Source: Pseudodesulfovibrio profundus (lineage in GTDB: Bacteria > Desulfobacterota > Desulfovibrionia > Desulfovibrionales > Desulfovibrionaceae). Taken from it: a stretch of 64,000 bases of DNA. How positions within the stretch are numbered: position 1 is the stretch's first letter; each line of letters begins with the position of its first letter. Shown here piece by piece: positions 28,224 to 33,417 of the stretch. A program made the position numbers and the translations under genes. The DNA lies in the NCBI RefSeq assembly GCF_900217235.1, contig NZ_LT907975.1, positions 2,703,001 through 2,767,000 of the forward strand, in the 5' to 3' direction. The notes under the pieces are model-generated. The model worked only from the letters and a program-made list of their open reading frames with translations. It searched no databases and was not told the origin of the DNA.

Positions 28224-28838
28224 CTACTTGATCCGTGGCGGACCGAGGACGATCATCTCGGCAATGGTGTGGTCCACCTTGGGCAGTTGGCGCAGGTTCT
28301 TGCCCACGAACTGCATCTCCAGCATGACCAGATCCTTGTACAGGGCGGTTCGGTTGACTACCGGTGCGACTTTGCCGTCCTTTTCATACTCCTCGGTCTG
28401 CTCCTGGCATCGATAACATCCCGGGAACTGTACCTGTTGTCCGTTGGGCTTGACCAGCAGATTGGGGACGCCGTGCATACGACAGATCATGAGCCGGTGC
28501 TTGTACAGACCGCAGATTCCCTGCTTTTCGTCGATGTTCAGCGGACACATGGTGTGCGGGCGTTCGCCGCGATTGAGGGCGGATTGCGCTTCCTCTACGT
28601 ACTGCTGTGCCTTGGCCTTGATCGCTTCCAATTGGTCGGCGGGCAGTTCGTTGAGGCCTTCCCAAAGGTACGCCCACTCGATGTAGGTGTGGTGTTGGAA
28701 AAAGGTGAGACAGCAGTTGTCAGTGCACCCTTCACAGGTCAGTCCGATGGCGTCGGCTGCCTGCCCGTACTGGGCGACCATTTTATCGTATATGGCGGCT
28801 AGTTTGCGATATGCGGCCTTGGGAGTGAGCTTTTTCAT
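28224..28838 (-). CDS. YkgJ-type cysteine-cluster protein
   Basis: A 204-residue protein with conserved Cys spacing: CEGCTDNCC near residue 36, CPLN, CGLYKHRLMICRMHG and FPGCYRC. This matches the CxxCxxxCC family thought to bind zinc or an Fe-S cluster. No signal peptide. Start at ATG 28838; its start overlaps the stop of the upstream kinase gene. Function unknown; the operon with a small-molecule kinase and pyrR suggests a housekeeping role. Confidence 0.82.
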   Translation of the reverse strand: MKKLTPKAAYRKLAAIYDKMVAQYGQAADAIGLTCEGCTDNCCLTFFQHHTYIEWAYLWEGLNELPADQLEAIKAKAQQYVEEAQSALNRGERPHTMCPLNIDEKQGICGLYKHRLMICRMHGVPNLLVKPNGQQVQFPGCYRCQEQTEEYEKDGKVAPVVNRTALYKDLVMLEMQFVGKNLRQLPKVDHTIAEMIVLGPPRIK

Positions 28839-29371
28839 GGTAGATTGATGGCTTCGAGAATTTGATCCACACATTCTTCCGGCGTGTGGCGGTCCGTGCG
28901 GACAACGATGTCAGCCGCGGCACGATACAGTGGCTGCCGTTCGTTGTAAAGATCGCTCATGCTCTTGCCCGGAGCAATGGCCAGCCCGCGGTTTTCCCCG
29001 TCACCGACGCGTTCCAGAAACGTATCCCGGTCGATATCCAGCATGACGATCTTGCCAAGCTCCTTGAGCCGGGCAACGGCCTTGGGGCCATAGATGACGC
29101 TGCCGCCGGTGGATATGACGGTCCGTGTCAGGCCGAGATCGCTGACCAGCGTTTCTTCAATACGAAGAAATTCGTCCAGCCCGAAGGTGTCCATGATCCC
29201 TTGCAGCGGCATGGCGTAAAAGGCTTCCATGTGGCGGTCAGTGTCGAGCTGTCCCCAGCCGAGGCGTTCGGCCAGTTTTTGCCCGAGGGTGGATTTACCC
29301 GCTGCCGCCATGCCGACGAGCGTGATGCAGGGTTGCGGGATCGGGTCCCGATCCAGAGGGGTGAATGCCAT
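28835..29371 (-). CDS. Shikimate-kinase-family small-molecule kinase (possibly homoserine kinase)
   Basis: A 178-residue P-loop kinase. Walker A is GMAAAGKSTLG, the substrate Asp motif is DTDRHMEAF, then LRIEETLV and VISTGGSVIYGP, and a lid with R...RQPLY. True shikimate kinases usually have STGGG and a FRxxE motif; here STGGS and RIEE differ slightly. I recall genetic work in Desulfovibrio vulgaris assigning homoserine phosphorylation to a shikimate-kinase-like protein, so this may be a non-canonical homoserine kinase rather than AroK. Overlaps the YkgJ-type gene by 4 nt and follows pyrR by 2 nt. Confidence 0.78.
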   Translation of the reverse strand: MAFTPLDRDPIPQPCITLVGMAAAGKSTLGQKLAERLGWGQLDTDRHMEAFYAMPLQGIMDTFGLDEFLRIEETLVSDLGLTRTVISTGGSVIYGPKAVARLKELGKIVMLDIDRDTFLERVGDGENRGLAIAPGKSMSDLYNERQPLYRAAADIVVRTDRHTPEECVDQILEAINLP

Positions 29372-29373
29372 GA

Positions 29374-29916
29374 TCAGTTCCTTTCGACCAGACAGACACG
29401 ATCCTCGTCGTCGCGCTCGGTGACAAGCACGTTGACGTGCTGGGCGCCAATGGTTTCGACCTTTTTGCCGATGTAGTCGGCCTGGATGGGAAGTTCCCTG
29501 TGGCCGCGATCGACCATGACGAGCAGTTCCACGCGCTTGGGACGACCATAGTCGAGAATGGCCTCAAGGGCTGCACGGATGGTCCTGCCCGAGTAGAGGA
29601 CATCATCCACCAGCACGATGGTCGCGCCTTCGATGTCAAACCCGATTTCGGAACAGTTGATGGTCGGAGCGAGTTCGAGATTGGTGGTCCAGTCGTCCCG
29701 GTACAGGTTGATATCGAGCTTGCCCAGGGGAACCTTGCGCCCCAGACGCTCGTCGAGAAGAAGTTTCAAACGTTCCGCCAAATCGGCTCCGCGTCGCTGG
29801 ATACCGAGTATGGCGAGGTTCTCGTCGTCGCCGTTACGCTCGTGTACTTCAAGCGCCAGACGCTCCAGCGTCCGGTTCATTTCCTTGGAATTCAATATGG
29901 TGCCGCAATCTTTCAT
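29374..29916 (-). CDS. pyrR: PyrR-type pyrimidine regulator / uracil phosphoribosyltransferase
   Basis: A 180-residue type I phosphoribosyltransferase. The PRPP-binding motif is VLVDDVLYSGRTIRAALEAI (about 97-116), and LAILGIQRRGADLAERL near residue 40 is a PyrR signature. In Gram-positives it binds pyr mRNA to control attenuation; in other groups it may act mainly as a UPRT. No pyr biosynthetic gene is adjacent here, so an attenuator role is not supported by context. A sigma-70-like promoter lies about 45-70 nt upstream. Confidence 0.92.
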   Translation of the reverse strand: MKDCGTILNSKEMNRTLERLALEVHERNGDDENLAILGIQRRGADLAERLKLLLDERLGRKVPLGKLDINLYRDDWTTNLELAPTINCSEIGFDIEGATIVLVDDVLYSGRTIRAALEAILDYGRPKRVELLVMVDRGHRELPIQADYIGKKVETIGAQHVNVLVTERDDEDRVCLVERN

Positions 29917-29988: not shown

Positions 29989-30083
29989 CACTATCGGCGA
30001 AAAGTAGCCATTTTCGATTTGACAAAGCCGAATATAGGTCTTACCTCTTCTATTCCCGACCACCCATAGGAGGAAATTAGCAA

Positions 30084-30428
30084 ATGTTTGAATTGACCGA
30101 AGCTGCAGCGAAGCAGCTTGAAGGCTACTTCCAGGACAAAGAAAAATCCCCCATCCGCGTTTATCTTGCGGCTGGCGGTTGAGCAGGCCCTCGCCTGACC
30201 CTGGCTCTGGATGAGCCTAACGATAAAGACGAAGTGTTAGAGGCCGGTGGATTCACCTTCCTCATCGACAAAGAACTTCAAGCCCAGACCGGCAAAGTGA
30301 AGATCGACATGACCTACTACGGTTTTGTTGTTGAATCCGAAAACCCGGTTGGCGGTGGCGGCGGCTGCTCTTCCGGCTGCGGCACCGATAGTGGTGGCGG
30401 CTGCTCTTCCAGCGGCTGTTCCTGCTAA
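30084..30428 (+). CDS. HesB/IscA-like selenoprotein (in-frame UGA = Sec33)
   Basis: Reading through the TGA at 30180-30182 gives one 114-residue protein. Codons 1-32 end in RVYLAAGG, Sec is residue 33, and AGPRLTLALDEPNDKDEV continues in the same frame to a TAA at 30426. In HesB/IscA-like relatives this position is the conserved Cys of the GGCxGPRLxLALDE motif, so U replaces a metal-ligand Cys. AGGAGG precedes the ATG. The C-terminus is a Gly/Ser/Cys tail with several CS/CG units. HesB-like selenoproteins are a known bacterial family in sulfate reducers. Standard callers would report only the part after the UGA (30234-30428). A Cys-containing paralogue follows at 30575. Confidence 0.9.
30180..30222 (+). 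promoter_or_regulatory. Presumed bacterial SECIS element
   Basis: Directly after the UGA, GCAGGCCCTCGCCTGACC can form a CAGG/CCTG hairpin with a CCCTCG loop, and further CTGG/CCAG-type pairing is possible. Bacterial SECIS elements lie within about 40 nt downstream of the UGA and have little sequence conservation, so the call rests on position and on the selenoprotein reading. Confidence 0.45.
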
Positions 30429-30470
30429 CCTGCGAGTACTTGCTGAACGAGTACAGCGTATGGAAATAAG

Positions 30471-30505
30471 AAGGGCGACACTCTGTTGAGTGTCGTCCTT
30501 TTTTT
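30471..30505 (+). terminator. Rho-independent terminator after the selenoprotein gene
   Basis: AAGGGCGACACTC/GAGTGTCGTCCTT stem with TGTT loop, followed by a seven-T run. Confidence 0.93.
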
Positions 30506-30574
30506 ACCATAATTACGCTTTACAAAGAATGATTCCTGGCTATACTCGTTCAACTTTGAGTCCAAGGAGCGTGA

Positions 30575-30889
30575 ATGATCAAGGTGTCAGAAGCAGCCAT
30601 GCAGGGGCTGGCAACCTTTTTTGAAGGAAAGGATGTCAGGCCTATTCGTATACAGTTTGCAGAAGATGACTGTAACGGGTCCGGCTTGCTGTTGACGCTT
30701 GACGACTATTGCTCGGGAGACAAATACGTCACCTACAACGATCTGACGTTCCTGATCAATGAACGTCTGGCTGAAGCGGCAGGAGATGTCTACATCGACA
30801 CCAGTACCACCGGCTTCAGCGTTGACTGCGAAAAACCGGTCAACAAGCGGTACGAACGAACCTATGGTTCACGCGACTGCGGCAGTTAA
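30575..30889 (+). CDS. HesB/IscA-like protein (Cys paralogue of the selenoprotein)
   Basis: A 104-residue protein aligning with the selenoprotein upstream: IKVSEAAMQGLATFFEGKDVRPIRIQFAEDDCNGSGLLLTLDD corresponds to FELTEAAAKQLEGYF...RVYLAAGGU-AGPRLTLALDE. A Cys sits one position from where Sec occurs, and FLINERLAEAAGDVYIDTSTTGFSV matches FLIDKELQAQTGKVKIDMTYYGFVV. The C-terminal Gly/Cys tail is replaced by RYERTYGSRDCGS. It is probably a duplicate with changed metal-binding chemistry. CCAAGGAGCGTGA precedes the ATG. Confidence 0.82.
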   Translation: MIKVSEAAMQGLATFFEGKDVRPIRIQFAEDDCNGSGLLLTLDDYCSGDKYVTYNDLTFLINERLAEAAGDVYIDTSTTGFSVDCEKPVNKRYERTYGSRDCGS

Positions 30890-31476: not shown

Positions 31477-32838
31477 CTAGTCCGGAGCTGTGCTCATCAC
31501 GTGAGACAACTCTTCGATCTTTCCATGCTTGAGGCGGTAATCGTACAGGGCGGCCATGTCCTTATAGACCTGGAAGACCTGGAAGAAACCGTGCCAGTGA
31601 GCGTAGTCCGGTCCGTTCATGGCGGCTCCGTGACGAGCGCGGCGTCCGCAGTGGTGCCACAGGAAGTACATCAACTCCTGGAAGCCGTCAGACCACGGGT
31701 CCTCGCCCAGGAGATTCTTCTCCTTCAGCACGGTCTTCATCTCAACTGCCTTGTCCCAGTATGTATTGTACAGGGCAACGCTGTTATCGAGCAGGTCGCG
31801 CTGGACATTGGTGTGGGTGGTCGAGTGGCAATTCTTACAGACGGCGCGCATCTTCTTGTCGCCTTCCATGCCGTTGCCGCGGGTGCCGGAGCGGATCTCG
31901 GAGCGGGCATGGACAAGGTCCCACTTCAGGCGGTCGGCCACGTTATGGGTGGTGCTCAACTCGCCTATGCCGGACATGTGACAGACGGCGCAGGTGGGTG
32001 CATCGTAGTCGCCCGGTTCCCAGGTGTCGGGAGCGGCTTCAAAGTTCCACTTCTCACCATGGGCGTTGTAAATCTGGCCGTGCTTGGATTCTTCGTAAAT
32101 CTCGATTTGCGGATGATCCGGCCCAAGGTGGCAGGAGGCACAGGCTTCGGGCTTGCGCGCTTCGGCTACCGAGAACTGGTGACGAGTGTGGCAGACGGTG
32201 CAAGTACCAACGGAACCGTCGGGGTAGCGGGTGCCAACGCCGCCGGGCCAGGTCTCATTGATGGGTTTGTTGTCCGGGCCAAGCTCCACCTTGGTGCCGT
32301 GGCACATCTGGCAGCCGGAAGCGCGTGCAGCGCGATTGGGACCGGAGCCGAGTTCTACGCCGAGGAATTCAGCGCCTTCATTGTGGTACATGAGCGACTG
32401 AAATTTGGGCACTTCCAGCAATGGACGGCCTGCGCCCATGGCATGGTTGGATTCCAGGAACTGCTCCACTTCACGAGGGTGACATCTGGAGCAGGTCTTG
32501 GAAGAGACCATGGGGGACGTGTAGATATCGGTTCCCCTCAAACCTTCACACTGACTGGCCATGGGGGAGTCCTTTTCCACGACATGACAGTCGTAGCAGG
32601 AGACCGTTGCATGGCCCATTTTGCCGTTTTTCCAGTTCTCGATGATACCGGGTGTTTTTTGGGAGTGACACTCGATGCACGATTTGGCTTCCTTGGTGTA
32701 GCCCCTGTGCACCACGAGCCTTTTTTTGCCGAGTTCAATCCCCTCAAGTTCTGCGGCGGCTTGCGCCTGTCCCGCGAATATGAGGGTCATGCAGCAAACG
32801 AATCCGGCGACGAATAACGTACCGAAGACCTTTTTCAT
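31477..32838 (-). CDS. Octahaem hydroxylamine-oxidoreductase-like cytochrome c
   Basis: A 453-residue exported multihaem protein: signal peptide about 1-28 ([20 protein letters not shown]) and eight CxxCH motifs (CIECH, CYDCH, CSRCH, CQMCH, CTVCH, CASCH, CAVCH, CKNCH). The C-terminal [29 protein letters not shown] is the HAO-family hallmark. The family oxidises hydroxylamine or, in the epsilon-type group, reduces nitrite or hydroxylamine; I could not decide which because the crosslinking Tyr region is not identifiable by eye. Encoded 9 nt after a NapC-type tetrahaem protein, the usual quinol partner of reductive HAO enzymes. A nitrogen-oxide detoxification or respiration role is therefore likely. 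Confidence 0.9.
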
Positions 32839-32847
32839 AAACCTCTC

Positions 32848-33417
32848 CTACTCTTTGCCTGCGACTTGCGGGCTTTGCTTAAAATAGTTGTTGATTTCCG
32901 TGACCATGTTCTTGTGGCCGACATGCTCGTGGCAATCCACGCAACGTTTGTCCAGATCGCCGATGAGGTACTGCCTGTGCGCGAGAATACCGCTGGTCCT
33001 CATGCCCTTGGGCTCGAGGTTCACGTGGCATTTTCTACAGGCATTGTCGTAGGTGAATTCGCGCCGGAACTTGGCGCGTCCAGCCCAGTCGTACGTATAG
33101 GGGTCGATGATCATGTTCATGATGATGTCCCGAGTCCCGGTGTACGCCTTGGCGGTCACATACTCCACAAAACCGCCATGCGGCAGGTGACAGTCAACAC
33201 ATTGCGCTTCAAGGCCTTTGGCGTTGGCTCCTCCGTGTGTTTCTTTTTTCCATGCAGTTCTGAATGGTGTCATTACGTGGCAGGAAACACAGAATTCATC
33301 CGTATTGGTGACCTGGATCATGTAACCCGAGGCCAGAATCACGGTTATGGTGAGCACAACTCCCACAAGCATGCCTGGCAACAGCTTTCTGCTCAGTCGC
33401 TTTTCACTGTCTGCCAT
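32848..33417 (-). CDS. NapC/NirT-type tetrahaem cytochrome c (quinol dehydrogenase)
   Basis: A 189-residue membrane-anchored cytochrome: one N-terminal helix (about 13-33, LLPGMLVGVVLTITVILASGYMI), then CVSCH, CVDCH, CRKCH and CVDCH haem motifs. NTDEFCVSCHVMTPF and LPHGGFVEYVTAKAYTG are NrfH/NapC features. It would take electrons from menaquinol and pass them to the HAO-like cytochrome, as in known HaoC-HaoA pairs. Upstream, toward the divergent sensor kinase, lies a candidate -24/-12 box (33555-33541) and a palindrome (33661-33674). Confidence 0.9.
   Translation of the reverse strand: MADSEKRLSRKLLPGMLVGVVLTITVILASGYMIQVTNTDEFCVSCHVMTPFRTAWKKETHGGANAKGLEAQCVDCHLPHGGFVEYVTAKAYTGTRDIIMNMIIDPYTYDWAGRAKFRREFTYDNACRKCHVNLEPKGMRTSGILAHRQYLIGDLDKRCVDCHEHVGHKNMVTEINNYFKQSPQVAGKE

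Follow-up and report, generated by a model that had tools for sequence, protein, structure and literature searches.

HesB-like selenoproteins have been in print since at least 2005–2006, for about twenty years, and the published members include proteins of Desulfovibrio. HesB-like selenoproteins were listed in 2006 for Desulfovibrio vulgaris and Desulfovibrio desulfuricans (PMC1794560, Table 3), and the same source shows a Cys-containing homologue from Desulfitobacterium hafniense with a putative SECIS remnant (PMC1794560). The D. vulgaris gene DVU_1382 was listed as a HesB-like selenoprotein in 2007 (PMC1914089) and a 2026 review lists the HesB-like family with the motif UxGP (PMC13188914). 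A HesB-like protein is also known from Methanococcus maripaludis, where mutagenesis and 75Se labelling led to it (PMC11097638); archaeal SECIS elements are located in the 3' UTR (PMC1088965). The gene described here is an ordinary finding, since both the family and members of it from Desulfovibrio have already been published.

The window analyzed is a stretch of 64,000 nucleotides from Pseudodesulfovibrio profundus. It contains a hesB-like gene on the forward strand (30084–30428) that encodes 114 residues when TGA is translated as selenocysteine (Sec, U), with Sec at position 33 and a Cys-rich tail (CSSGCG...CSSSGCSC). The protein begins MFELTEAAAKQLEGYFQDKEKSPIRVYLAAGGUAGPRLTLALDEPN... and its frame runs from an ATG at 30084 to a TAA at 30426–30428, open on either side of the TGA. 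The initial annotation had described exactly this arrangement, an in-frame TGA at 30180–30182 in codon 33 with a clean frame on both sides and an AGGAGG before the start, and the coordinates and the translation agree; the AGGAGG is a ribosome binding site-like sequence, identified from the sequence, at 30068–30073 (+ strand), 10 nt upstream of the ATG. It also expected standard annotation to yield a fragment, and the open reading frame list made with translation table 11 gives in this frame only a 64-amino-acid piece with a GTG start at 30234. The gene is likened to the Desulfovibrio HesB-like selenoproteins such as DVU_1382, which belong to a different genus, by the family name, the TGA codon reported in print and the UxGP motif, present here as UAGP. 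It belongs to the same HesB-like group as the 75Se-labelled protein of M. maripaludis, but the latter is archaeal, with the SECIS in the 3' UTR. Judged from sequence, the hesB-like gene is very probably a genuine selenoprotein gene of the IscA_HesB_Se family, and the insertion of Sec at UGA33 is predicted with near certainty.

Two genes on the opposite strand lie upstream of the hesB-like gene, encoding a phosphoribosyltransferase (29374–29916) and a shikimate kinase (28835–29371). Downstream, a paralogue follows on the same strand (30575–30889), and a 16-bp hairpin that runs into a T stretch (30468–30503, + strand, −25.4 kcal/mol, z = −7.9) is a likely intrinsic terminator between the two genes, at a position where the consensus scan reports a terminator-like site on the − strand only. 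With this hairpin between them, the two hesB-like genes are probably transcribed separately. A promoter-like sequence (TTTACA-16-TATACT, 30519–30546, + strand) precedes the paralogue; it is a consensus match only (10/12), in a region where the scan found three promoter-like sites against 1.0 expected. The same scan found no sigma-70-like promoter before the Sec gene on the + strand. Elsewhere in the window, a gene pair on the − strand (31477–33417) encodes a multihaem cytochrome (PF13447) and a NapC/NirT-type cytochrome (PF03264), which is probably a respiratory module. A scan of the window for other frames of at least 150 codons with a single TGA, a minimum that makes it blind to short genes such as the hesB-like gene, gave 13 candidates, of which the four that were scanned had no Pfam match; the candidates are taken for chance or antisense frames.

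With the TGA read as a residue, the protein matches the NCBIfam model NF038090 (IscA_HesB_Se) over its full length at 118.6 bits (cut-off 85), with residues 1–97 aligned to positions 1–101 of the 101-position profile and no difference from the model seen in the Sec protein. The Pfam domain PF01521 (Fe-S_biosyn) is also above its cut-off (38.6 bits, cut-off 26.3), and both matches place the protein in the HesB/IscA-like family, as proposed initially. None of the equivalog models for the A-type carriers reached its cut-off (IscA 24.5 of 150.6 bits, SufA 27 of 136.2 bits, and ErpA 28.1 of 117 bits), and the protein is also below the cut-off of TIGR00049. The model TIGR01911 (HesB_rel_seleno), which describes related HesB-like selenoproteins, was rejected as the filing family since the score of 40.6 bits is below its cut-off of 66.35.

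A phmmer comparison with solved HesB/IscA proteins gave E-values of 1.9e-5 for 2apn and 7.3e-5 for 1nwb and of only 0.08 for E. coli IscA. In these alignments Sec33 shares a column with the first conserved Cys (GGCSG) of the solved proteins, which bears out the placement of the TGA at the conserved Cys of homologues that had been proposed from the sequence. Alignment with IscA-type proteins, the only basis for the assignment, makes Sec33 a putative metal ligand. An AlphaFold2 model built from 18 sequences is of moderate quality (mean pLDDT 75), with residues 91–114 below 50 and disordered; two Cys residues of this disordered Cys-rich tail, C95 and C99, are nearly invariant. The best PDB matches of the predicted model in Foldseek are IscA and SufA (E = 8.4e-6 to the IscA structure 1x0g), with TM-scores of only 0.47–0.57 over the nine best matches. 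Overall, the Sec protein has the PF01521 domain, the fold and the place of the first conserved Cys in common with the A-type carriers IscA, SufA, and ErpA, but it has Sec instead of that Cys and UAGPRL instead of CSGFQY or CSGMAY, and it ends in the disordered Cys-rich tail, which may stand in for the C-terminal CxC (CGCG) ligands.

The likeliest role of the Sec protein, which we put at about an even chance, is that of an A-type carrier of Fe-S clusters or metals that has a selenolate-thiolate site. The IscA-like fold would hold a selenolate where IscA has its first conserved Cys, the flexible Cys-rich tail would replace the CxC end, and selenolate and tail together may build a metal or Fe-S site like that of IscA. 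Somewhat below an even chance stands a different function for the same selenoprotein, in which the selenolate would serve redox chemistry or the binding of another metal or metalloid. Several published statements favor this possibility: nitrogen fixation was not impaired in a M. maripaludis disruption mutant (reported as an unpublished observation, PMC11097638), the function of the HesB-like selenoprotein is called not clear in the same text (PMC11097638), and most uncharacterised selenoproteins are expected in the 2026 review to have redox roles (PMC13188914). The departure of the tail from the classical CxC and the UxGP that follows the Sec, rather than the CSGF or CSGM of solved relatives, point in the same direction. 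Against it, the solved structures that come closest in sequence and in fold are of the HesB/IscA/SufA type and include an IscA with a [2Fe-2S] cluster, and the genomes searched appear to have a vacancy for a carrier. A search set of 60 genomes (the P. profundus genome, 35 more of the genus and 24 from other families of the order) was screened with PF01521 at an E-value of 0.001, and matches were found in 29 of the 60 genomes, all 37 of them inside hesB-like loci. No canonical IscA, SufA, or ErpA, scored as PF01521 outside the hesB-like loci, was seen among the 60 genomes with this model, which is above its cut-off in 9 of 14 control genomes but is insensitive to divergent members and fails to match the hesB-like copies in 7 of the 36 genomes from the genus and in all 24 genomes from other families. 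Many Deltaproteobacteria have been described previously as lacking A-type carriers (PMC2682760).

The reading of the gene as a selenoprotein gene, common to both functional proposals, was examined through the conservation of the codon. A homologue of the Sec protein was found in all 60 genomes of the search set. Each of the 36 genomes from the genus (P. profundus included) and each of the 24 from other families has a copy in which the codon aligned with residue 33 is TGA. A total of 119 copies, a few of which are counted twice where loci overlap, carry 61 TGA, 57 TGC or TGT and a single CTT (Leu) codon in this column. The exchange of Sec and Cys in relatives for which the initial annotation had called is thus seen at codon 33. 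In a wider sampling of the order, 145 of 150 genomes contained the family, with scores above the cut-off in 137; 8 of 14 control genomes gave a match, none of them above the cut-off.

In bacterial Sec decoding a hairpin is bound by SelB with Sec-tRNA-Sec. Folding of the sequence past the UGA, proposed initially as a check, identified a SECIS-like hairpin, and the folding and its conservation in the Sec copies predict the upper stem-loop of a bacterial SECIS at 30203–30217 (+ strand, GGCUC-UGGAU-GAGCC). The stem has 5 bp and the loop 5 nt with a G at the second position; the hairpin starts 20 nt past the UGA and the loop 25 nt past it. The published limits for bacterial SECIS elements are a loop of 3–9 nt, a stem of 4–16 bp, a G in the first two loop positions and a distance of 16–37 nt from the UGA (PMC13188914), and the hairpin lies within all of them. 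A smaller hairpin, the first past the UGA (30184–30197), was dropped as a SECIS candidate as it is not kept across relatives. Single-sequence folding is weak (z = −2.2 for 41–46 nt and about 0 for the two longer pieces) and, taken alone, is therefore little proof.

The Cys copies serve as a control for the conservation of the hairpin because much of the protein constraint is common to Cys and Sec copies. All 58 distinct Sec sequences have the four inner pairs and the loop UGGAU or UGGAC (GCUC-UGGAU/C-GAGC) intact, compared with 0 of 53 Cys sequences, and the Ala codon is GCT in all 58 Sec sequences versus 10 of the 53 Cys sequences. When synonymous codons were resampled in 200 rounds, the four inner pairs were kept in a mean of 4.9 and a maximum of 11 of the 58 sequences. 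As the four inner pairs are invariant in these first 58 sequences, they represent frozen codons and not covariation. The outer pair, with its 5' side at the third position of a Leu codon, is GC in 33, TA in 21, AT in one and CG in one of the 58 Sec sequences and unpaired in two; this variation, counted as moderate support, runs largely or partly along lineage. Among 31 further TGA copies from other genera the element is found at the same offset in 30, and in one it is three bases nearer to the UGA after the loss of a codon, while 0 of 8 Cys copies have it intact.

The P. profundus genome (completeness 100) contains selA (615.7 bits), selB (383.8 bits), and selD (327.7 bits), each above the curated cut-off, and the selD gene has an in-frame TGA of its own (in AAGUAAK). 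A tRNA-Sec was identified at 78.4 bits, above the Rfam cut-off, with the next best tRNA at 46 bits. Among 14 control genomes, selA is above the cut-off in one, selB in two, selD in two and tRNA-Sec in five, so that the Rfam model for tRNA-Sec is not strict when used alone. The search for Sec genes that the initial annotation had recommended came out in its favor, and a lack of such machinery, which it had named as grounds for giving up the reading, did not appear.

The link between TGA copies and selA was analyzed in 40 further genomes of the same family that were picked after the wider sampling of the order had been seen. Among these, selA is above the cut-off in 34; of the 34 genomes with selA, 31 have a TGA copy, versus 0 of the 6 without it (Fisher p = 2.2e-5, kinship ignored). 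Three genomes have selA but no TGA copy (G097, G136, and G165); a weak second match with TGA in one of them (locus L158 in G165) was not recovered by phmmer and was left out of the TGA copies. Five of the genomes without selA (G123, G141, G152, G161, and G164) contain Cys copies and the sixth (G158) contains no copy.

Taken together, the machinery, the SECIS-like hairpin, the exchange of Sec and Cys and the co-occurrence with selA argue for the original reading of a selenoprotein with UGA at codon 33. Ribosomes would reach UGA33, the hairpin within the gene (GGCUC-UGGAU-GAGCC) would recruit SelB carrying Sec-tRNA-Sec, and Sec would be inserted in place of termination. Readthrough of UGA occurs in bacteria, and suppression that reads the codon as Trp or Cys instead of Sec is a conceivable but very improbable alternative: Cys occupies column 33 in 57 of the 119 copies and Trp in none, the Sec machinery is complete, the hairpin falls within the published SECIS limits, and TGA copies are absent from all 6 genomes that lack selA. 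Equally improbable are two separate products, a 32-residue peptide that ends at the UGA and a 64-residue protein from the GTG at 30234. This is how table 11 lists the frame, but the residues on both sides of the UGA align as a single domain across 18 sequences, and no AGGAGG-like sequence was seen before the GTG. A nonsense mutation or a sequencing error in an ordinary Cys gene is refuted in effect, with a negligible probability. In its favor, a one-base change turns a Cys codon into TGA and the evidence comes from sequence alone; against it, all 60 genomes searched, P. profundus included, have a copy with TGA at this codon, followed by a fixed hairpin, and the protein downstream is conserved.

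The paralogue at 30575–30889 had initially been described as a Cys paralogue that follows the Sec gene. It does carry Cys at codon 33, but it is a divergent copy of a third type, without a Cys-rich tail, and not the usual Cys partner. It scores 59.2 bits with NF038090, below the cut-off, has no Pfam match, and is 35% identical to the Sec protein, compared with 39–74% for the other non-Sec copies in the genus. The assignment as the usual partner was rejected because the paralogue forms a clade (100/99) with the third copies of two genomes of the set (G022 and G018), in a tree of 113 rows and few columns in which the bootstrap values are otherwise unsettled. The third copy in G018 (L022), an orthologue of the paralogue in the window, has Leu at the conserved Cys column, and the third-copy type may, to judge from this residue, have lost a role at the metal site. 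In 33 of the 36 genomes from the genus, a non-Sec copy lies within 3 kb downstream of the Sec gene (within 1 kb in 27) and has the same orientation; in the remaining three it is on another contig. The P. profundus genome gave only two matches to the family in both the 60-genome search and the wider search of the order, and as the paralogue in the window is not of the common type, the usual tandem Cys copy is apparently missing from this genome, which appears to keep only the divergent third-copy type.

A Cys copy in another genome (L026, G026:C30:28516-28845) is 74% identical to the Sec protein and groups among the Sec copies at a fork that the tree does not settle, and is perhaps a recent duplication with a change from Sec to Cys. 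Two further Cys copies, L164 (G097:C80:12400-12950) and L160 (G152:C1:517900-518400), retain a near-intact SECIS remnant, GGCTCTGGACGATCC and GGCTCTGGACGAACC, respectively, and their sequences suggest that they are likely to be recent conversions from Sec to Cys. G152 has no selA match and G097 retains selA.

The tandem Cys-type copies that are usual in relatives may act as selenium-independent backups. A more far-reaching proposal, which we consider unlikely, is that the Sec protein is the main A-type carrier in these anaerobes and that the tandem non-Sec copies form with it a selenium-dependent isoform switch for Fe-S delivery, resembling the Sec/Cys enzyme pairs of Methanococcus. The value of the hesB-like gene is that of a clean positive case, in which a recoded stop codon was found by reading the sequence without tools, and the Sec and Cys copies act as a natural control by which constraint on the protein can be told apart from constraint on the RNA. 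The question that the gene raises is why an A-type-carrier-like protein would need selenium, and cultivable relatives carry both forms.
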